A stretch of DNA of 25,380 bases from a virus. Made by a program: the position numbers and the translations under genes. Position 1 is the first letter of the stretch; each line of letters starts with the position of its first letter. The notes beneath the pieces are model-generated. The model saw nothing but the letters and a program-made list of their open reading frames with translations, did no database searches and had not been told where the DNA came from. Positions 1,478 through 22,857 of the stretch are shown here, piece by piece. The stretch is taken from positions 1 to 25,380 of IMG/VR virus record IMGVR_UViG_3300022934_000163; one strand, given 5' to 3'.

Positions 1478-2940
1478 TACTTATTCACTCGGAATCGTTT
1501 GCTTCTGTTTTCAGCAGGATTGTTGCCTATCAAGTTAGTACCAAATCGAATCGTGCCCTGCTTCGAAGCAGATCGACCAATGTTCTTTGGTATGTTCTTC
1601 TTAAAGTCTTTATTGAGTTTACCCTGTGACACAAGATAACTCGTAAACTTACCGTTATTGAAATGTTGCGGATCACGCAACTTAGAACGTACTTCAGAGA
1701 TCGTTGGATCAAAGTTAAATAGTTCTTCATAATCGTCTGACTTGAGAATCTTGTCTTTTAATTTGGGATCTACTACTACGTTACGAACACCATAATTGCT
1801 CGATGCCAACTGCATTTCTACTACCGCTGGATTAGGAATAGGTGCAGTAGCGGGCAAAGGAATGTACGGCATAATCCCCGGCTTGGGCGGCACAGGAATT
1901 GGAGGCTTTCCAGCGCCAAGTTTAATCGCTTTCAATGCTGTAGCGGCAGCACCTGCACTCTTTGAAAAACCAGCTTGTGATGCAAACATTGCATAGTCAG
2001 CGTGAAATGCTTCAGTCGCACGACCGACAAGTGAGCCATAAAACGTAGCCAACTGTGTGATGCCTGCAGGAAAACCACCGTACGTCTTGCCGTAGTGATC
2101 AAGCAGAGGTCCACCAATCGTGCCTTTGTGACCAATCATACTTACGTGACGTGCAGTAATGTTTGCTGTAGAAGATGCGGCTACCCACTCATTTACAGCA
2201 GTTGTGATAAGATTTTCTCCTGCTAGTATTTCAGTTGTGCCCTGAGTAAACTGATTGAGATCGCCTCCTGTAATAAGATTCTGATCACCAAGCACTGTAG
2301 ACGTAGCCATCTCTACAACCTGTTCGCTTCGTGAACCACGTATTGTGTAGTTCTGATCGCGATTGACTACTTTTGTGTGTCTTCCTTTGATGTCTTCTTT
2401 CTTGTCTCCGGCAACATTGAGATTGTAATTACCAGCAACATCCACATTGAAATCACCGTCGATACGTAGATTAACATTACCTTTGTAAACAAGTGTTCCT
2501 TCTCCCTCGACGATAGTGGTTGCGTCTCCCTGAGATACTTCTACTCGCTGAGACTTAGATGATATGACAACAGAACCGTCAGCCCGCATTTCGATGCCAG
2601 CACCGGTACGATGCTTGAACAATACGCGCTCACCACCAGGAGTGTCATCGATTTCGATAACGTGACCAGATGGCGTTTCTTGCACTTGATTGTATGGGTA
2701 TTGTGACGGCTTCTGGTCAGGCACGTCAAGTGCGACTCCAAAGTCTCCACCACCCAAATCGAGATTGTTGATTCTTTCGCCCGTTGCGGCTTTGTTTACA
2801 CTAGTACCGAAAAAGTAATCGCGATTAGGATACTCACCAGACGCATCAGCGAAGCCTTCGTTAGGAACGCCAACAGTTTCTTCTTGACCTTCGCCAAGTT
2901 CATTGATTCTGCCTTGAAGATCGTCTAACTTATTCGTCAT
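1477..2940 (-). CDS. gp5: gp5 C-terminal-like cell-puncturing needle / baseplate spike
   Basis: 487 residues. Residues about 90-270 are a run of short alternating strands with repeated Val/Ile/Asn/Gly/Asp (for example GNVNLRIDGDFNVDVAGNYN and nearby repeats), the pattern of the triple-stranded beta-helix of T4 gp5 C-domain and VgrG spikes. A segment HKGTIGGPLLDHYGKTYGG follows, then a Pro-rich linker (about 330-365) and a C-terminal tail with FDPTISEVRSKLRDPQHFNNGKF-type sequence that I take to be conserved in related phages. In T4 this needle is the C-terminal part of gp5. Here it has its own gene without OB or lysozyme domain, two genes downstream of the OB-fold gene. The start ATG lies inside the end of the amidase gene (11-base overlap). 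The role is inferred as the trimeric spike under the hub. Confidence 0.8.
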   Translation of the reverse strand: MTNKLDDLQGRINELGEGQEETVGVPNEGFADASGEYPNRDYFFGTSVNKAATGERINNLDLGGGDFGVALDVPDQKPSQYPYNQVQETPSGHVIEIDDTPGGERVLFKHRTGAGIEMRADGSVVISSKSQRVEVSQGDATTIVEGEGTLVYKGNVNLRIDGDFNVDVAGNYNLNVAGDKKEDIKGRHTKVVNRDQNYTIRGSRSEQVVEMATSTVLGDQNLITGGDLNQFTQGTTEILAGENLITTAVNEWVAASSTANITARHVSMIGHKGTIGGPLLDHYGKTYGGFPAGITQLATFYGSLVGRATEAFHADYAMFASQAGFSKSAGAAATALKAIKLGAGKPPIPVPPKPGIMPYIPLPATAPIPNPAVVEMQLASSNYGVRNVVVDPKLKDKILKSDDYEELFNFDPTISEVRSKLRDPQHFNNGKFTSYLVSQGKLNKDFKKNIPKNIGRSASKQGTIRFGTNLIGNNPAENRSKRFRVNK

Positions 2941-11689: not shown

Positions 11690-11874
11690 TATGCCTCTCT
11701 CACGATGACTTAGCAAATTTTTTCAAAACAAACTTTTTGCTACAAAGGCATCATAAATACACATTGACTGAGATAGAAATGATGATGCCGTGGGAGAGGG
11801 AAGTACACATAATCCTACTGCTTCAGGCATTAGAAGAAGAAAAACAAGCACGAGAGCAAGCACAAAATGGCTAG
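10997..11874 (+). CDS. gp26 frameshift fusion, -1 extended (gp51/E'-like tail assembly chaperone)
   Basis: The -1 frame opens at 11647, after a TGA at 11644-11646, and runs to TAG at 11872-11874. It has no ATG, GTG or TTG before 11737, so it is most simply read as an extension of gp26: join(10997..11686, 11686..11874). The added part contains LSHDDLANFFKTNFLLQRHH, then KYTLTEIEMMMPWEREV and an Ile/Leu plus Glu/Lys-rich helix. The MMPWERE core is the signature I associate with the second half of tail assembly chaperones (P2 E', lambda T position). The fusion is about 288 residues. It ends eight bases inside the tape measure gene. A separate small protein from the ATG triplet at 11779 is the alternative, but it would lose the conserved front part. 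Confidence 0.7.
11680..11686 (+). promoter_or_regulatory. Programmed -1 ribosomal frameshift site
   Basis: T TTT TTC in the gp26 frame is a canonical slippery heptamer, directly before the stop TGA at 11687-11689. AGAGGA at 11666-11671 is a Shine-Dalgarno-like stimulator eight bases upstream. Downstream, ATGCCT (11691-11696) can pair with AGGCAT (11746-11751), enclosing a second stem TAGCAAA (11711-11717) with TTTGCTA (11736-11742). All parts are visible; efficiency is unknown. Confidence 0.72.
11752..11759 (+). promoter_or_regulatory. Possible late promoter upstream of the tape measure gene
   Basis: CATAAATA is one base from the late consensus and lies within the -1 frame extension, about 100 bases before the tape measure ATG. 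It overlaps the 3' edge of the stem described at the frameshift site. It could be chance in an A/T-rich stretch. Confidence 0.25.
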
Positions 11875-13219
11875 TATAACCCTTAGAGACTTAGTAGAAG
11901 AGCAAGAAGAAACAAACATGCGATTGGATGAAATCGATGATCGGTTTCTTCAGTTCTTTGATATGTTGCGGGCTGATAAACTCGACATGCTTGAGATCAT
12001 GTCAGAACTAAAAGATCAAAGACCAACAGTTCCTGCTGTGCCGCCCGGTGCTCCAGAAACTACACCTACGCCAGAAGTGGCTAGTGGTCTAAAGTTTGGT
12101 TTCGGAACATTAGTTACAAGTCTAGGCGTTGCACTTACAGCGGCTTGGGCAGCCTATATCAAAGAGATAGGAACGTTGTTTAGAGCCCTCGGAAGAGGAC
12201 TGGGCAAAATACCAGGCGTAGGTTTTATAACAAGAACCATAGGTAACATCGGAAGTTACTTCACGAATCTAAGAAGAGTTTTTTCTGGTGTCGATAGCAC
12301 AATGCGCACCGCGTCTGGTCAATTCCGAAAGATGAATTTCTTTGAAAAAGGCATCAAGTCTATAGGTGCATTTTTCAGAAGCGTTGGTGGTATGTTCAGT
12401 GGTTTTTCTGGTGGAGGTTTCATGGAAAAAATGAAGCCGCTCTCAGACTTCTTTGCTAAATTTAAGCCAATGTTCGGAAAACTGCTTGGCATTTTCAGAG
12501 CGATTGGTCGAATCTTTCTTCCTCTCACTGCAATCATCGAAGTCGGCTTGGGTATCTTCAGAGAAGTGTCTGCGCTTGAAGAGGGTGCTGGCTTTATGGA
12601 TTATCTTGAAGCTGGCGTTAAAGGTATCATCAAGGGTCTAGGAAGATTAGTCACAATGCCTCTTGATCTGCTCAAGTCTGGCATCTCATGGATCGCTGGT
12701 AAATTAGGATTTGATCAGGTTGAAGCAATGCTGGACAAATTCTCATTCACAGAACTATTTGATAGCATGGTTGATGGCGTAGCAGAAATTGTTAAAAAGA
12801 TTTTCAGATTCCCAATTGCTGTAGCAAAGGCTGGTAAAGCGGCACTTGGTGCGGCTTTCACTCCAGGTGAAAGTGCAACCGAAACGTTTGGTAAAGTCTT
12901 TAGTGAAGTGATGGCTGGTGGAGATACAGCCGAATCTGGCACTGTCACTGCTAGTGCAACGAGTGCATCAGCCGCGTCAGTAAATGAACCACCACCAGAA
13001 GAAGCCTCGCGTCCACGCACACGTGCAGACGTACGTAGACAGAGAATGGAAGCACGAGCGGCTGAAGAAGCGGGTCAAGCACCAACAGTTACAGTTGTCA
13101 ATAACACTAATGCTCCGACAACAACTACAAACAATAGTACGACAACTGGCGGTGGAGCACCTCTACCACAACCTACTCAATCAAACGGATCGCGAGCCGA
13201 CGCTTACGCTGGGGCATAA
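11867..13219 (+). CDS. gp29: Tail tape measure protein (gp29 position)
   Basis: 450 residues. It begins with an acidic coiled-coil-like stretch (about 5-55) and a Pro-rich linker, then a long run of hydrophobic and amphipathic helices rich in Gly, Phe and Lys (about 75-345). These include candidate membrane-active segments such as LVTSLGVALTAAWAAYI and FLPLTAIIEVGLGIF. The C-terminus is low complexity: Pro/Glu/Arg, then VTVVNNTN followed by Thr/Asn repeats and Gly/Ala. Tape measure proteins set tail length and enter the cell envelope at infection. It is the first gene after the frameshifted chaperone, the usual tape measure position, and overlaps its end by eight bases. T4 gp29 has 590 residues for a tail near 100 nm. 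At about 0.15 nm per helical residue, 450 would suggest roughly 65-75 nm. Confidence 0.8.
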   Translation: MASITLRDLVEEQEETNMRLDEIDDRFLQFFDMLRADKLDMLEIMSELKDQRPTVPAVPPGAPETTPTPEVASGLKFGFGTLVTSLGVALTAAWAAYIKEIGTLFRALGRGLGKIPGVGFITRTIGNIGSYFTNLRRVFSGVDSTMRTASGQFRKMNFFEKGIKSIGAFFRSVGGMFSGFSGGGFMEKMKPLSDFFAKFKPMFGKLLGIFRAIGRIFLPLTAIIEVGLGIFREVSALEEGAGFMDYLEAGVKGIIKGLGRLVTMPLDLLKSGISWIAGKLGFDQVEAMLDKFSFTELFDSMVDGVAEIVKKIFRFPIAVAKAGKAALGAAFTPGESATETFGKVFSEVMAGGDTAESGTVTASATSASAASVNEPPPEEASRPRTRADVRRQRMEARAAEEAGQAPTVTVVNNTNAPTTTTNNSTTTGGGAPLPQPTQSNGSRADAYAGA

Positions 13220-13245
13220 AAAAAGGGAGCCCGAAGGCTCCCTTT
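13217..13245 (-). terminator. Hairpin terminator between convergent tape-measure and gp32 transcripts
   Basis: A perfect 10-bp stem (13222-13231 with 13236-13245) closes a four-base loop. On the minus strand the loop is TTCG closed by C-G, an unusually stable tetraloop, and the stem is followed by seven Ts, so it is a classic intrinsic terminator for the gp32 transcript. On the plus strand only three Ts follow, so stopping the tape-measure transcript would be weaker. It sits directly on the tape measure stop codon. Confidence 0.9.
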
Positions 13246-13257
13246 GCACTACTACGA

Positions 13258-14166
13258 TCAATCTTCAGCGGCGAGTTTCGCAAAGTATGAAAGAGTATCT
13301 TCTTCACCATCTGCTGAAAGGTCTGCGGTTACAACTTCAGGTTCCGCAGGAGCACTTGCTCGGATGGGCGTTGGTGCACGGGTTGCATCTAGATCAACGT
13401 CTGCTCTTGCAGTCCGAGGAGCCGCTTCACCAAGTACAAGAGCAAGACGGGCTTTGAGTTCGTCATAGGTCTTGTACTGTGCAGGATCAGTAAACTCGTT
13501 CAGATCAAAGAGTTGATCATAGACTTGCTCAAGTTCACCATCGTCACCACCAAGCAGAGGAGCAGGAGATGCAAACTCTGACTTGTCATAGTTTCGATAG
13601 CCTTCGACATTCCGAATCTTCAGTTTGAACGAAGCACCTTCCCAGAAATCAAATGGGTTTACGGGATCTTCGTCTTGGAACTGTGGTTGCATCACGTCCA
13701 TGATCTTGTCGAAGATTTTCTTACCGAAGGTGTACAGAAAGACTTTGCCCTCATTCTGAGGATTCGCTGGGTCAGATTCGACAAGAACGTTTGCAACGTA
13801 GTGAAGACGGCGCTTCTGTGAACGTGCAGTTTCTTTGTCAGCCTCATTACCAGAGTTCCACAAACGAGAGTTCAATTCGCCAACAGGATCTTGCTGACCA
13901 ATCGAAGTCAAAGACTTTTCGATATACCATTGACCGGTAGGACCCTTGAAGCCATGATCCCAGTATCGAACCCAAGGCAGTTCGTTGCCTTCGGGTGCAG
14001 GTAGAAAACGCAGGACTGCGTAGCCATTGCCTGCTTTATCAACGGTGGGCTTCCATTGACGTTCATCGACGTAGGACTTCTTTTCGGTGGGGGCATCACC
14101 CGCTGTTGCGGCGGAGACTAGGTCGGAGATAGAATTGCGATTACGCTTGAGATTTGAAAAAGACAT
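13258..14166 (-). CDS. gp32: gp32-like single-stranded DNA binding protein
   Basis: 302 residues, close to T4 gp32 (301). The basic start FSNLKRNRNSIS is the LAST-type motif used for cooperative binding. The core has GYAVLRFLPAPEG, LPWVRYWDHGFKG, HYVANVLVESDPANPQNEG, KVFLYTFGKKIFDKI and FWEGASFKLKI, all in gp32 order. The C-terminal 70 residues are acidic with Pro/Ala and end in LSYFAKLAAED, the protein-interaction tail. The His/Cys zinc ligands of T4 gp32 (the region EN-C...CPVC) are absent: the matching stretch reads EKSLTSIGQQDPVGEL. This loss is, to my knowledge, also seen in marine T4-like phages. AAGGAAA lies six bases before the ATG. The protein coats ssDNA in replication and recombination. 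Transcription ends at the TTCG hairpin. Confidence 0.95.
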   Translation of the reverse strand: MSFSNLKRNRNSISDLVSAATAGDAPTEKKSYVDERQWKPTVDKAGNGYAVLRFLPAPEGNELPWVRYWDHGFKGPTGQWYIEKSLTSIGQQDPVGELNSRLWNSGNEADKETARSQKRRLHYVANVLVESDPANPQNEGKVFLYTFGKKIFDKIMDVMQPQFQDEDPVNPFDFWEGASFKLKIRNVEGYRNYDKSEFASPAPLLGGDDGELEQVYDQLFDLNEFTDPAQYKTYDELKARLALVLGEAAPRTARADVDLDATRAPTPIRASAPAEPEVVTADLSADGEEDTLSYFAKLAAED

Positions 14167-16465: not shown

Positions 16466-16611
16466 TGCTTAGGAACTTTCCTCGTCAGTGAAAATTTGTA
16501 AACGTCACTCAACAGTTTTCTTTCTTCTGCTGATAGACTATTATACATCTTTTTATCTTTACGTTCAACCTTGCCAACTTTACGCATCAACTTGGCTTTC
16601 TTAGAATTCAT
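16462..16611 (-). CDS. Small highly basic protein (49 aa)
   Basis: The frame reads MNSKKAKLMRKVGKVERKD then KKMYNSLSAEERKLLSDV and a basic end. It fills the whole gap between thyX and the HCDKH gene, starting 11 bases inside thyX and ending with ATGA overlap to the next gene, which is the local pattern for true genes. Lys/Arg make up about a third of the residues, so nucleic-acid binding is plausible. No family recognised. Confidence 0.65.
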   Translation of the reverse strand: MNSKKAKLMRKVGKVERKDKKMYNSLSAEERKLLSDVYKFSLTRKVPKQ

Positions 16612-17305
16612 AGTGAGCCTCCACTGCCTTTGCAACGTCAGGAAAATGTTGTTTCAAAACATCCCAGCATTGATCAGCGACTCGCATATGTTCTTTCTGC
16701 GTACCGTGTGCACGTCGAAGTTCACAGTAGTGAATCCACGAGCGAAGCGTACCAGCCATGTACAGCGTTGTCTCGGTGTTACCTTCGGGCAGTACAGCGC
16801 GGGCTTGCTCTTTTGCAATGCCGTTGTCTAGTGCCCACTGATAAGTGCGCTTCGCAAGATTAACCACTTCAGACTGCTTCATATTCCAGTTTTCGTACAG
16901 ACGCTCTTGCGGAGTCTTATTGCCGCCTTTACCAAAGTCATCGGTGTCTTCTAGTTCAATAGAGTTCTGTCGATTCTTTGGATCTTGCAAGCGAGCCTCA
17001 CGAAGAGCAAATGAATCGCTCACCGCATAGCGTTGCGAAAACTCTTGAAACGAGAACGACCGATGTCGCAATATCTGGCGAGAAATGTCACGGGTTGTCA
17101 CAATCTCCATAGTGACTGACACCATTTCAAAAGGCGACCAGTGATTCTCGCGAATCAAATATTCAATAAGTTTAGGCGCAGTTTTCTCATTGTTCTGATT
17201 GGCTGGATTACTTACACGAGCCGCATATGCAATCAATTCATTCGCAGTGTTACAGCCAGTGGACGCACTGGGCGTTGTCATGCCCACAAGTGCCACTCTA
17301 CTCAT
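16601..17305 (-). CDS. thyX: Flavin-dependent thymidylate synthase ThyX
   Basis: 234 residues from the ATG at 17305, with AAGGAAAA before it. The ThyX signature RHRSFSFQEFSQRY is present at 80-93, the site that binds FAD and dUMP, and further family blocks are NHWSPFEMVSVTMEI (54-68), ARAVLPEGNTETTLYMAGTL and SWIHYCELRRAHGTQKE. ThyX uses methylene-tetrahydrofolate, FAD and NADPH to make dTMP from dUMP; phages carry it to raise the thymidine supply for DNA synthesis. Length is normal. It lies between two tiny basic ORFs that overlap its ends, inside a run of DNA metabolism genes. All key motif residues are intact, so it is expected to be active. Confidence 0.96.
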   Translation of the reverse strand: MSRVALVGMTTPSASTGCNTANELIAYAARVSNPANQNNEKTAPKLIEYLIRENHWSPFEMVSVTMEIVTTRDISRQILRHRSFSFQEFSQRYAVSDSFALREARLQDPKNRQNSIELEDTDDFGKGGNKTPQERLYENWNMKQSEVVNLAKRTYQWALDNGIAKEQARAVLPEGNTETTLYMAGTLRSWIHYCELRRAHGTQKEHMRVADQCWDVLKQHFPDVAKAVEAHYEF

Positions 17306-17438
17306 AGTCTTTTCCTTTATGTTTAATGTAACCAAGGCGAGCCGCTTTTTTGCGGTCCGCCATCACCTGTGCCCGATTGAACTTGCGAGCATGTTTCGCG
17401 ACCAGATTGTTAATCGTCTTTTTCTGTGTAGAAGACAT
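17298..17438 (-). CDS. Small basic protein (46 aa) overlapping thyX start
   Basis: The frame reads MSSTQKKTINNLVAKHARKF then NRAQVMADRKKAARLGYIKH and a short end, stopping at TAG inside the first codons of thyX. Similar tiny proteins with NRAQVMxDRKKxxR occur in many phages. It also overlaps the end of the SleB gene by 29 bases. This chain of overlaps and the basic, helical composition support it being translated. Function unknown. Confidence 0.65.
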   Translation of the reverse strand: MSSTQKKTINNLVAKHARKFNRAQVMADRKKAARLGYIKHKGKDYE

Positions 17439-18389: not shown

Positions 18390-18526
18390 CGTAGCATCCT
18401 TGCACAAGTCAAAAAAGAATTCTCATTCAAGCAATCAGACCAGATGAAGTGAACATACCAGCCCACCATAAACACAACTATCGCTAAAGCAGTTGCATAG
18501 ATTCCAAGTTGAAGCCAGTCTCTCAT
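18386..18526 (-). CDS. Small single-helix membrane protein (46 aa)
   Basis: The frame reads MRDWLQLGIYATALAIVVFM, then VGWYVHFIWSD and a short polar tail with two Cys. Residues about 6-29 form one hydrophobic membrane helix. It starts by ATGA overlap with the 18523-19023 gene and ends inside the ATG pair of the next gene, filling the gap exactly, which supports it as a gene. One gene away from the SleB hydrolase, it could be a small holin or lysis regulator; many phages also have unrelated one-helix proteins. Confidence 0.65.
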   Translation of the reverse strand: MRDWLQLGIYATALAIVVFMVGWYVHFIWSDCLNENSFLTCARMLR

Positions 18527-19023
18527 GCCACCTCCGGAAGAGGCGCCAATTCTCCTGCCGCCTCTTTCTTTGCGAAGTATTGTTCTAACTCATCCATGTC
18601 ATCAAAGGTGAGGAGTCGCATCTCAGAGCGACCTTCTTCGGTTTGATGCCATGAACGCTCACCGAACGGAGTCGCATCCATGTTGTACTTACGTGCAATC
18701 TGCTTGCACATGAGTTCGTCACGGTCTGACATGAGAGCGCAGTAAATGGGAGATTCCCACTCATCGCAGTGATCCGACTCTTTAAAGTCGATATCATCGA
18801 CCAGAGTCTCACCAATGATGTACTCCTTAGAGTAGTCTGAAGAGTGCTCGATGCACTTCGCAACACGAGCGTAGAACGACTTGTCCTGCGCTTCCTGCAG
18901 GTTCACATCGACGATGTAGGTCTCACCGCCCTTGAACTTCCAGTACTGCGGACACTCGCCCTTACCGTCCCAGTCATGGGCGCCGTAGTTCTCGCAGAAT
19001 TGGGTTTGGATAACAAGTTTCAT
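18523..19023 (-). CDS. Acidic conserved marine phage protein, unknown; first gene of promoter P1 unit
   Basis: 166 residues from the ATG at 19023, with GAGAGG upstream. It is acidic, with the N-terminal MKLVIQTQFCENYGAHDWDG then CPQYWKFKGGETYIVD. The His/Trp/Cys pattern near the start could be structural. The middle is helical (Glu/Asp-rich), the end is LLTFDDMDELEQYFAKKE. I recognise the QTQFCENYGAHDWDG start from other phages but know no function. It is the first gene downstream of the strong promoter at 19054-19082, so probably expressed early and at high level. Confidence 0.75.
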   Translation of the reverse strand: MKLVIQTQFCENYGAHDWDGKGECPQYWKFKGGETYIVDVNLQEAQDKSFYARVAKCIEHSSDYSKEYIIGETLVDDIDFKESDHCDEWESPIYCALMSDRDELMCKQIARKYNMDATPFGERSWHQTEEGRSEMRLLTFDDMDELEQYFAKKEAAGELAPLPEVA

Positions 19024-19053
19024 AATCAAAGCCTCTCTCTAACTTACGCAGTA

Positions 19054-19082
19054 ATTATCTCAGAATTTAGTCAGTCTGTCAA
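19054..19082 (-). promoter_or_regulatory. Sigma70-type promoter P1 with A-tracts and inverted repeat
   Basis: Minus strand: TTGACA (19077-19082), 17-base spacer, GATAAT (19054-19059). Upstream are two A-tracts (19086-19092 and 19097-19102) about 10 bases apart, UP-element-like. Just at and after the -10 is an imperfect inverted repeat AATTAC-TGC-GTAAGT (19042-19056). Initiation near 19047 fits the ATG at 19023. Near-consensus for host polymerase, so probably an early promoter. Confidence 0.9.
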
Positions 19083-19226
19083 CACTTTTTTTAGACTTTT
19101 TTGTTCTAAGAATATAACCGAAAAGATGGTGCCAGTATTGGGTTAGATAGGGACTGGCAAAACCTACTCGCAAGGTTGTTAACCCTCGCTACAGGCCGAC
19201 CTACTGTTTTCAGTCTCCTGCTCTGT
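19083..19226. other. Non-coding region between promoter P1 and the upstream terminator
   Basis: About 140 bases with no credible reading frame on either strand. It holds the A-tracts of P1, then a possible long stem: GGGTTA (19139-19144) with TAACCC near 19181, enclosing a 5-bp, 7-base-loop hairpin AACCT...AGGTT. No T-loop (TTCRANNC) or acceptor pairing was found, so it is not a tRNA. It could be a leader or a small RNA. Confidence 0.5.
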
Positions 19227-19287
19227 AAAAAAGATGGGGTAGTGCCACATAGCAATCAGTAGCAATTTTCGAAAGCACATCCCCATC
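19227..19287 (-). terminator. Intrinsic terminator of the 19.3-19.9 kb unit
   Basis: GATGGGG (19233-19239) pairs perfectly with CCCCATC (19281-19287). After a 2x2 internal loop, GTGC (19242-19245) pairs with GCAC (19275-19278), leaving a 29-base loop. On the minus strand six Ts follow the stem (19227-19232). It begins eight bases after the stop of the last gene. The loop is larger than usual. Confidence 0.75.
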
Positions 19288-19294
19288 AAAAAAC

Positions 19295-19471
19295 TTAAAT
19301 CTCTAGCACGTCCTCGCAGTAGACATCCATGATCTCTTGATCACTCAGTCCAGCTTGACGCAATCGGTAGATGAAAGCGTCACTGGTGATCATCTTATCA
19401 CTCAGAGACTCAACCAAACTCAAGACATACTCGCCCATCTCACCACGGGCATACCACTTCACTTCACTCAT
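19295..19471 (-). CDS. Small acidic protein (58 aa), last gene of promoter P2 unit
   Basis: The frame reads MSEVKWYARGEMGEYVLSLV, then ESLSDKMITSDAFIYRLRQA and GLSDQEIMDVYCEDVLEI. It starts at an ATG sharing its A with the upstream stop (TAATG) and ends just before the terminator. It is acidic and helical, with a look like a small helix-turn-helix or protein-interaction domain (SDAFIYRLRQAGLSDQEI), which is not certain. Probably expressed early. Confidence 0.7.
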   Translation of the reverse strand: MSEVKWYARGEMGEYVLSLVESLSDKMITSDAFIYRLRQAGLSDQEIMDVYCEDVLEI

Positions 19472-19656
19472 TACTCTACTCCCATAATAATACCAATGCG
19501 CTTTTGCTTGTTCACATTAACCGTTACTGAGTCACCAATTCGACGGCGAGGTTCACCGACAACATCAAGATAATGCAGAGTCTCAGTGACTCGATTACCG
19601 TACTTGGTGAACTCGACCAAGTACGGATTGTAAACATACGTAGGCATTTTAAACAC
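19471..19656 (-). CDS. Small protein (61 aa) of the P2 unit, GTG start
   Basis: The GTG at 19656 lies seven bases after a perfect AAGGAGG and shares a base with the stop of the upstream gene (TAGTG), so I prefer it to the ATG three codons on, which is 20 bases from that ribosome site. The protein is basic and beta-rich, with RRRIGDSVTVNVNKQKRIGI near the end, resembling a small SH3- or KOW-like barrel. No family is assigned. Confidence 0.7.
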   Translation of the reverse strand: MFKMPTYVYNPYLVEFTKYGNRVTETLHYLDVVGEPRRRIGDSVTVNVNKQKRIGIIMGVE

Positions 19657-19931
19657 TAAGCGACCTCCTTAGGTGCAAACAATTTAGAGAAACCTTCGAC
19701 CAAGAGATTGTAAGAGAATATCTCATATCGCCAATCATTGTCGAAACTGTAGTCATCAGACTCGTAAGCTTCGTTTTCAGCTTTTTCGTAACGCTTCTCA
19801 AAACCCATAAGGGCGTCAAGGGTGCTTTCAGTGCCCATGAAACCTTTGATAATTCGAAGGGCTTGATTGAAGTCAATTTCGTTCTCAAGACCCTCTCGAT
19901 CAAACTCACACTGGTAAATAATTCTAGCCAT
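19656..19931 (-). CDS. Acidic protein (91 aa), first gene of promoter P2 unit
   Basis: Starts at the ATG at 19931 with AGGAG seven bases before it; earlier frame starts lie inside the promoter leader. MARIIYQCEFDREGLENEID opens the protein, followed by an acidic, helical body with several Tyr and Phe residues (YESDDYSFDNDWRYEIFSYN) and a short end. No known domain. It is the first gene after a strong early-type promoter. Small acidic early proteins often bind host enzymes, but nothing specific can be said. Confidence 0.75.
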   Translation of the reverse strand: MARIIYQCEFDREGLENEIDFNQALRIIKGFMGTESTLDALMGFEKRYEKAENEAYESDDYSFDNDWRYEIFSYNLLVEGFSKLFAPKEVA

Positions 19932-19962
19932 AACAACTCTCCTATCTCTCAATTACATGGTA

Positions 19963-19990
19963 ATTATCGCAGGATTTGGAGAAATGTCAA
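19963..19990 (-). promoter_or_regulatory. Sigma70-type promoter P2 with A-tracts and inverted repeat
   Basis: Minus strand: TTGACA (19985-19990), 16-base spacer, GATAAT (19963-19968). Two A-tracts lie upstream (19994-19999 and 20005-20011). A perfect inverted repeat AATTAC-CAT-GTAATT (19951-19965) covers the end of the -10 and the start point. The layout is the same as P1, including GTGTTGACA. Drives the 19295-19931 genes. Confidence 0.9.
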
Positions 19991-20014
19991 CACTTTTTTC
20001 GAAGTTTTTTTCGA

Positions 20015-21074: not shown

Positions 21075-21594
21075 TTTTTATCCTTTCTAGTTCTTCCATC
21101 AACTTGATTTGATAACGGAAGCCTTCTTTGACTTGCTCTACGTCAAGTTCTAGTTCGCGAATGTTTTTAATACACTCTTGTCTCGACTCAAACTTATATA
21201 TGTTTCCTGGAGTCGGCACTCCTTTCGACACAATACTGCCACCAAACATCATGCCAAGATAGTTGAGATACATGTGCGAGTTTTTTTCTGCATCACGCCA
21301 TTCATCAACGCCCAAAATGTAGTCAGCATAATAGCAAGCCGAGTAAGGAGTAATCAAGCGCGAAGGTCTCTTGCCTAGAGAAAGCAAATCTTTTTCGATG
21401 GCTTCACAGCGATAGAGTGCATCGTTCGGAATACGATATTCGAAATGATTTTCCATAGCGTCAAAGATTACATACTGCGCATTCAAGTACCGAACGTAAT
21501 CGTCTTCGTCATAGTCACCATTGACAAGACGTTGTGAAAACGTTGTCTCTTCTACTTGATCGTGCAACTCTTTAGTCGCTTCTTTAATATTCAC
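21064..21594 (-). CDS. ho: Heme oxygenase
   Basis: 176 residues from a GTG start that overlaps the upstream stop (GTGA). The fold signature is clear: KELHDQVEE with His11 as the proximal heme ligand, then FSQRLVNGDY, DYVRYLNAQYVIFDAMENHF, and the distal helix YLNYLGMMFGGSIVSKG with the Gly-rich GMMFGG pattern of canonical heme oxygenases. It cleaves heme to biliverdin, iron and CO, using reduced ferredoxin in phages and cyanobacteria. The product feeds the bilin reductase encoded 11 bases further on. The size is smaller than cyanobacterial HO1 (about 240) because the C-terminal extension is missing, as in other phage forms. The pair forms a compact biliverdin-to-bilin cassette. Confidence 0.88.
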   Translation of the reverse strand: MNIKEATKELHDQVEETTFSQRLVNGDYDEDDYVRYLNAQYVIFDAMENHFEYRIPNDALYRCEAIEKDLLSLGKRPSRLITPYSACYYADYILGVDEWRDAEKNSHMYLNYLGMMFGGSIVSKGVPTPGNIYKFESRQECIKNIRELELDVEQVKEGFRYQIKLMEELERIKNVE

Positions 21595-22526
21595 TCAACA
21601 CCCCAATTCGTCACTAGCTTCATGCCGTAGTTGTTCACACCCTTCGGCACTTCGATCCCTTCTTTAAATGCCAACTTGTTCTTCTTGAAAGAATCATAGT
21701 TCACGTGATGGTGCCAGCGACCGTATCGCCACACCATCTTTGCCACGTCAGGATGCATGTCAACGAGCATCTGTGACTTAGCGACAGTACCGACCACATT
21801 GTATCTATCTTTTACTTCAAGTAGATCATCCGCTTTGAGTGCTTCGCCAGTTTTAGGATCGTAGCCAACTTCTTTGTGATAGAACTCAGCAGAGTTACCA
21901 CCCTTGACAGTCTGCGTTGCGGCTTTGCCTTGTAGAAACGCATTGAACTGTACGGTGCAGTCACCGTCTTTGAGAACGCGCAGACAGATATCGGTGTCTT
22001 CGTTGTAACGACCACGCCAGCGGTGCTTGCAATCGTTCTCGATCAGTAGACACGAATAGATGCGCGTGTTCGCCACATAAGGCGGATACTTTTGATTAGG
22101 TGCGCAGAAGAATCGATACTGAGGACCAGCGATCTTCACATTAGTGTATCGATCAACAAAGTCTTCCATCACACGAAAGCAGACACCAGACTCGACACGA
22201 ATACGCACGTTTTTATGCAGACGATAAAAGTCTTGAATATTGTCATCAAGAACCCAGTGACGCTTTGCACCAAGTTCTATTGAGTGATCCCAACACCAGT
22301 TTCTAGCCCGCCCAGGACCGTCACCGTGATTAGAGAAAGGTGCAACCAGTAGAGTAACAAACTCCCGTATCCCAAAATTGTCCAGTGCTTGTTCGTAATC
22401 TGCTTCATCTTGTGGCTCAATTGCAATGTAGTGTGGTACTTTCATACGCGCCAACGAGCGCGATGTAAACATCGACTCGTGACGCCCTTTCGAAATAATG
22501 TAAACAGGATATCTTGGATTAGTCAT
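21591..22526 (-). CDS. TET-associated glycosyltransferase-like protein (TAGT)
   Basis: 311 residues from the ATG at 22526. The N-terminus NPRYPVYIISKGRHESMFTS is the usual start of a GT-A type enzyme, and RHWVLDDNIQDFYRL carries the Asp94-Asp95-Asn metal-site motif. Other family blocks are GRARNWCWDHS, NTRIYSCLLIEND, WRGRYNEDTDICLRVLKDGD and FNAFLQGKAATQTVKGGN, and the end has HPDVAKMVWRYGRWHHHV. The TAGT family is found with phage TET/JBP-like oxygenases and is thought to sugar-modify oxidised bases in phage DNA. No TET-like gene is in this window, so the target may be encoded elsewhere or may differ. It overlaps the small acidic gene upstream by eight bases and the heme oxygenase by GTGA. 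Confidence 0.8.
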   Translation of the reverse strand: MTNPRYPVYIISKGRHESMFTSRSLARMKVPHYIAIEPQDEADYEQALDNFGIREFVTLLVAPFSNHGDGPGRARNWCWDHSIELGAKRHWVLDDNIQDFYRLHKNVRIRVESGVCFRVMEDFVDRYTNVKIAGPQYRFFCAPNQKYPPYVANTRIYSCLLIENDCKHRWRGRYNEDTDICLRVLKDGDCTVQFNAFLQGKAATQTVKGGNSAEFYHKEVGYDPKTGEALKADDLLEVKDRYNVVGTVAKSQMLVDMHPDVAKMVWRYGRWHHHVNYDSFKKNKLAFKEGIEVPKGVNNYGMKLVTNWGVE

Positions 22527-22857
22527 CGTTATCCTCAATCCAACGCATGAGTGCGTTTTTGGTAATCTCTAATCGAGGATGCCAAATCGATTTTGTCTTT
22601 CCCGATAGAGGTTGCTCGATCAACTTTGCAAACTCTTCGTAGTCTTCTTTGGTACGAAAGTGTACGTTGATCGTCTTGTAGGGTTTGTTGTCTTCTTGCT
22701 CAAACTCAGGCATGCCCTGCCAGTGTTCTTGCCACGGCTCTTCGAAGATTGCATCTTCATCTTCGCCAAGAAACTCTGCTAGAGTAGCAGGTCGATTGTC
22801 TTGCTCTTTCTTACCGATAAAATTATCGTATACAGTTTTTTCTTCAACGTTTGCCAT
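22519..22857 (-). CDS. Small acidic protein paired with the TAGT gene
   Basis: 112 residues from the ATG at 22857. The first half is acidic and probably disordered (FLGEDEDAIFEEPWQEHWQG), the second half is a compact beta/alpha unit with YKTINVHFRTKEDYEEFAKL, then IEQPLSGKTKSIWHPRLEI. The 'TIxVxFxxxxDxxxFAKLxxQ...TKSIWxP' pattern is one I know from phage genomes close to similar glycosyltransferases, with no known function. It might be a partner of that enzyme or of the nuclease upstream, from which it is separated only by a 14-base overlap. Confidence 0.7.
   Translation of the reverse strand: MANVEEKTVYDNFIGKKEQDNRPATLAEFLGEDEDAIFEEPWQEHWQGMPEFEQEDNKPYKTINVHFRTKEDYEEFAKLIEQPLSGKTKSIWHPRLEITKNALMRWIEDNDD

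Follow-up and report, generated by a model that had tools for sequence, protein, structure and literature searches.

The window, by which we mean the whole stretch of 25,380 nucleotides analysed here, comes from a T4-like myovirus and, over its 25.4 kb, encodes a gp32-like SSB, a gp2 DNA end protector and baseplate hub and wedge proteins. A longer IMG/VR record (the one behind locus L007) contains all of it at ~100% identity. Its nearest annotated relatives are Phage C48C1 (OQ984149) and Methylophilales phage Melnitz (MZ577097), with 60% and 57% identity in gp32, respectively. On the minus strand we observed two transcription units opened by near-identical promoters, P2 and then P1 (Table 1); a terminator-like hairpin would terminate the P2 unit before P1. 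The intergenic region between the two units (19100-19295, minus strand) is long and structured, with a strong terminator-like hairpin followed by more stem-loops (-55.9 kcal/mol, z -1.9); it could be a small RNA or a terminator alone, and an Rfam search of the whole window, this region included, gave no match. Elsewhere on the minus strand are genes for a beta-glucosyl-HMC-alpha-glucosyltransferase-like protein (21591-22538) and a ThyX thymidylate synthase (16601-17335), a possible sign of modified phage DNA or of nucleotide metabolism. A further strong terminator-like hairpin, AAAGGGAGCCTTCGGGCTCCCTTT-TTTT (13222-13245, minus strand), lies between convergent ORFs at 11867-13219 (plus) and 13258-14166 (minus), the latter being the gp32-like SSB.

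Table 1. Features of the P2 and P1 transcription units, in positions of the window.
Feature	Position	Strand	Details
P2 UP-like region	19994-20011	-	A-tracts 20011-20005 and 19999-19994, ~1 helical turn apart
P2 -35	19985-19990	-	TTGACA; GTG (19993-19991) just before
P2 -10	19963-19968	-	GATAAT, extended (upstream TG); spacer 16
P2 palindrome	19951-19965	-	AATTAC-CAT-GTAATT, perfect; predicted +1 is G 19956; centre ~-2
P2 Shine-Dalgarno	19939-19943	-	AGGAG, in AGAGA-rich leader; purine-rich Shine-Dalgarno recurs across the class
P2 first gene	19656-19931	-	91 aa (MARIIYQCEF...); 80% identical to Phage C48C1 protein
Two further small ORFs of P2 unit	19295-19656	-	61 and 58 aa
Terminator-like hairpin	19227-19287	-	GATGGGG...CCCCATC-TTTTTT; read from the sequence, then folded
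P1 UP-like region	19086-19102	-	A-tracts 19102-19097 and 19092-19086, ~1 helical turn apart
P1 -35	19077-19082	-	TTGACA; GTG (19085-19083) just before
P1 -10	19054-19059	-	GATAAT, extended TG; spacer 17
P1 palindrome	19042-19056	-	AATTAC-TGC-GTAAGT, one mismatch; predicted +1 is G 19047
P1 first gene	18523-19023	-	166 aa (MKLVIQTQFCENYG...); 52% identical to Phage C48C1 protein

Read along the minus strand, P2 is AAAAAAACTTCGAAAAAAGTG-TTGACA-N16-GATAAT-TACCATGTAATT and P1 is AAAAAAGTCTAAAAAAAGTG-TTGACA-N17-GATAAT-TACTGCGTAAGT. They have in common UP-type A-tracts, the element GTGTTGACA, an extended -10 of the form TGnGATAAT and an AATTAC-N3-GTAATT dyad, a 15-base palindrome that in both promoters starts within the -10 hexamer, in its last AAT. 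An earlier note on this DNA had described a composite module shared by P1 and P2, with two A-tracts in each promoter and an inverted repeat, perfect in P2 and with one mismatch in P1, that covers the end of the -10 and the start point. All of these elements were borne out, and the extended -10 TG can be added to them. The window has exactly two copies of the joint pattern GTGTTGACA-N15..19-GATAAT, against 0/100 shuffles; the dyad, with at most one mismatch allowed, also occurs exactly twice against 0.10 expected, and none of the shuffles had two. In normal sigma70 geometry +1 lies seven bases past the -10, and from this spacing we infer that transcription initiates at the G of GTAATT, which would put the centre of the palindrome near -2. 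An ATG follows 24-25 nt downstream of the predicted +1 in both cases, and the AGAGA-rich leader, also pointed out in the earlier note, is present and can be described more exactly as a ribosome-binding site. In their hexamers, 16-18 bp spacing, A-rich upstream sequence and location before small non-core genes, P1 and P2 have the features of T4-type sigma70 early promoters. T4 middle promoters, in which the MotA box TGCTTtA replaces the -35, are ruled out as a class for them by the presence of a consensus TTGACA, and an N4-type hairpin promoter was set aside given the consensus -35 and -10 elements.

The palindrome recurs in dozens of related uncultured water phages, nearly always at promoters. 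The search of relatives for the composite pattern that had been proposed was run, and within a single clade of uncultured T4-like phages it placed the module in at least 30 distinct promoter clusters, where the small genes that follow are mostly unrelated. Scanning viral contigs with TTGACA..GATAATTAC-N3-GTAA returned 50 stretches, 31 of them distinct; a control with the right arm reversed (TTAATG) returned 0. A viral-contig scan with no right arm in the pattern (GTGTTGACA..GATAATTAC) returned 34 stretches, among which nearly all clade members carry GTAA in register, with differing upstream, spacer and loop sequences. When a -35 was not required, at least 33 of at least 101 distinct GATAATTAC-N3-GTAATT sites had a -35 matching at five or more of six positions at 16-18 bp, versus 1.9% of random positions; most of the sites without a -35 look like chance matches in coding sequence. 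When the bare module was compared with annotated phages by BLAST, the matches were all of low complexity or unrelated. Across 257 Gb of bacterial and archaeal sequence (84,980 genomes), a pattern of similar specificity had two matches against ~1.4 expected by chance by our own calculation, and we reject a host operator visible in host genomes, the promoter-plus-dyad matches there being at chance level only.

Within 13 long records (~0.8 Mb), ATTAC-N3-GTAA is almost always placed on a -10 preceded by a -35, and the few copies found off promoters do not exceed the number expected by chance. Shared genes, mostly at ~40-60% identity, unite twelve of these records into one clade. The thirteenth, G017 (locus L051), has the motif but no ORF in common with the clade, and no RBS is evident downstream of the motif; we treated it as a chance occurrence. 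Each long record holds one to five palindrome promoters alongside promoters without the dyad, so that the element marks a subset of promoters and is not universal. Early promoters lacking the repeat had been named in advance as an observation that would count against a shared element; relatives do have them, and in part the point tells, the repeat being the mark of a subset. In the T4-sized record behind L019 (G001, 169.7 kb), a single palindrome promoter (1717-1757, minus strand) stands among many TATAAT promoters of another type, and it may have been acquired along with its small gene.

Selection was assessed on non-redundant promoter sets, 191 promoters being from clade loci and 186 from other phages. 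TAC-N3-GTAA is found in 30 of the clade promoters versus 2 in the other-phage set. Alignment of the 30 gives a class architecture consisting of an A-tract UP region, a TTGACA that mostly has GTG or CGC in front of it, a 16-18 bp spacer ending in TG(A/C), GATAATTAC-YNY-GTAATT and a short Shine-Dalgarno leader. Both A-tract blocks are conserved; the spacer is mostly variable, as is the loop (Y-N-Y), and the arms are near-invariant. The outer TT of the right arm, which was not used to define the class, is T in 24/30 and 28/30. Since some loci had been fetched with the motif, the association was retested on sites fetched by upstream sequence only: TAC and GTAA occur together in 8, TAC alone in 0, GTAA alone in 2 and neither in 19 (p=1e-5, a value that ignores shared ancestry). 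A second, looser upstream scan found the motif in 0/38 clade loci, and the motif is thus restricted to a sublineage. The genes downstream of class promoters are mostly non-homologous, and the constancy of the arms therefore does not come from linked coding sequence. We consider that constant arms beside a variable loop and spacer are better evidence for selection than p-values that ignore shared ancestry, and that the palindrome is almost certainly a real promoter element with purifying selection acting on both arms, as far as can be judged from aligned sequences.

In C48C1 and Melnitz there is no match to the exact ATTAC-N3-GTAAT. Orthologues of the downstream genes in sister phages have a sigma70-type promoter at the same place with a different start region: the 80%-identical P2 orthologue of C48C1 is preceded by TACAAT-GGGTACATAAAG, and the sister start regions before orthologues read RGYTACATAAATTRATG, ACTTGTATTGAAWT, AGTTACCTAATTGA and ATGATTTTAAAC, with ATAnGTATAG in Melnitz. 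Because the sister phages keep the sigma70-type promoter but differ in the start-site motif, we take the palindrome to be a lineage-specific cis-element, and P1 and P2 would be members of a lineage-specific class of early promoters of the host-sigma70 type, found in a clade of uncultured T4-like phages. Within a contig, start regions resemble each other more closely than they do between contigs (z=8.2). This within-contig similarity is also raised in the leader and spacer, and it is not raised in the upstream A-tract region or the -10 hexamer; because leader and spacer are included, within-genome promoter copying probably contributes. Locus L261 (11.8 kb) packs nine or more almost identical early promoters (TATAAT-ATACMCATATT/CTTGAACGGAAA) into less than 12 kb, pointing to local promoter duplication. 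A different sequence, TTTGTTnnnAAAACATG, itself a dyad, recurs in the -35/-10 spacer of Melnitz W02 early promoters and of L113, L118 and G014:12281; many of the wider clade's early promoters contain it, and it is possibly a second operator-like element.

Early promoters of T4-type phages (T4, RB49, RB43, Aeh1, 44RR and RB69; PMC1524935) resemble P1 and P2 in being host-sigma70 promoters with an A-rich UP region and a GTTGAC-like -35, in their conserved A at -11 and T at -7, in their location before small early genes and in having a phage-specific consensus. The class described here also has G at -33, as in RB49, RB43 and Aeh1 (PMC1524935). However, no palindrome at the -10/start region was described for those promoters (PMC1524935), whereas in the present class there is a 15-bp dyad whose arms hardly vary, and position -12 is mostly G. 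Other repeated phage elements offer the nearest conceptual parallels. Cluster O mycobacteriophages (the Corndog group) carry more than 30 copies per genome, some inside genes, of a 17-bp palindrome, TGTTCGG-N3-CCGAACA (PMC4351075), which is likewise short, phage-group-specific and present at many loci, with invariant arms, a variable 3-bp centre and a factor not identified. It differs in its sequence, and here one to five copies were detected per long record, fixed on the promoter -10/+1. SAS of Cluster K, an asymmetric 13-mer proposed to act in translation, and ESAS, which are 17-bp inverted repeats (PMC3203893), resemble the palindrome, as do the 13-bp stoperators of Cluster A, in being repeated lineage-specific elements near the starts of unrelated genes, with subcluster-specific variants; stoperators are transcription-regulation sites that differ from it in sequence and position. 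Sequence, fixed promoter position and low copy number rule out that the palindrome is any of these elements, and it stands apart from them in its sequence, its fixed -10/+1 place and its occurrence in a T4-like, lytic-type group.

What the dyad does can be read in several ways. One is a nucleic-acid hairpin, either a stable 5' RNA stem-loop, as the earlier note had suggested, or one formed by the non-template strand within the initiation bubble. Single-stranded P2-type arms could pair over 6-7 bp (-2 to -4 kcal/mol as DNA), and variant dyads occur at 23/161 other clade -10 elements versus a permutation mean of 6.2 (other phages, 2/184 versus 1.6). By spacing and the Y/R step, however, the predicted +1 falls downstream of the left arm, so that the two arms would not both be transcribed, and the RNA stem is weak, at about -1.8 to -2 kcal/mol in P2 and -0.1 to -0.2 in P1. 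The arms are conserved as sequence, with no compensatory change, and general Watson-Crick covariation is at most weak outside the TAC/GTA class; we therefore keep the variant-dyad excess as suggestive only, and several of the variant dyads are of low complexity, TATA-like and perhaps incidental. The RNA hairpin is thus not supported, the bubble hairpin has little in its favour, and hairpins as a whole appear very improbable. It is also unlikely, if less so, that the right arm is a conserved mRNA 5' leader serving translation, stability or RegA-type control, with the left arm a product of the -10 and chance. Leaders of the form RTAAWTnATGAGAGAGG are found repeatedly in the wider clade, and a 146-kb relative encodes a RegA-family translational regulator (PF01818), but this leaves unexplained the TAC at -6 to -4, which is predicted to be untranscribed and yet goes with GTAA.

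The reading that we favour, and hold tentatively, is a double-stranded operator for a dimeric regulator. A symmetric DNA-binding protein, encoded by the phage or by its host, would bind the palindrome as double-stranded DNA near -2, the bound dimer would compete with RNA polymerase for the -10/start region, and the regulator would in this way determine how strongly the early small-gene units with the palindrome are expressed or when they are shut off. The dyad is perfect, its sequence is conserved, its 3-bp centre is free and its bases are shared with the -10 and the start; therefore an operator is the simplest reading. Several units have in common these two-fold symmetric, sequence-conserved arms, and the shared operator put forward in the earlier note is consistent with a repeated module containing a selected palindrome, although no regulator was identified. 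Against an operator, no palindrome was found away from promoters, where one could expect an auxiliary operator to lie; the left half shares bases with the -10, making its conservation partly a promoter constraint; the YNY loop rule is asymmetric and points to initiation (Y at -1); and the start motifs of some lineages are non-palindromic.

The main rival is an intrinsic initiation-region element with no dedicated regulator, in which a discriminator TAC and an initially transcribed GTAATT would tune how stable the open complex is, which start site is chosen or how the host (or phage-modified) RNA polymerase escapes, the dyad being largely a by-product. We regard this as quite possible, if short of probable. 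It would account for the strict placement on -10/+1, for a loop that fits a Y(-1)R(+1) start and for the related non-palindromic motifs of sister phages, with RTAAWT at +1. The failure to find a regulator also fits: among at most 25 families listed for 102 small ORFs of the 146-kb relative, Pfam gave no HTH, RHH or other evident repressor, in a search that could miss a weak match; none of the matches listed for ORFs of the P1 and P2 units was repressor-like; and no convincing DNA-binding protein is encoded by a gene present in motif-bearing and absent from motif-lacking genomes. The 146-kb relative does encode a WYL_2 protein beside the RegA-family protein, and we do not claim either as the regulator. 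On the other side, TAC and GTAA occur together far above expectation and GTAA without TAC is rare, and we know of no RNA polymerase contact that requires exact mirror symmetry with a variable centre. Returning to the operator, start motifs that differ between sister phages before the same genes are what one would see with motif and factor changing in step from lineage to lineage. We hypothesize, with more doubt than confidence, a lineage-specific operator system at the start site of a subset of early promoters in a lytic-type clade, whose motif and factor would be replaced together between sister lineages. Literature searches found no published description of the palindrome.

In T4, early genes are read off strong host-type promoters and are shut off by changes to RNA polymerase. 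Melnitz is without identifiable middle promoters (PMC9004378). A conserved palindrome at the start of a chosen early subset would suggest that phages for which no middle-mode switch is known use operator-type control; TGnGATAATTAC-N3-GTAATT provides a sequence tag for tracing the palindrome regulon in metagenomes, and the palindrome itself a small, defined bait for finding the factor.
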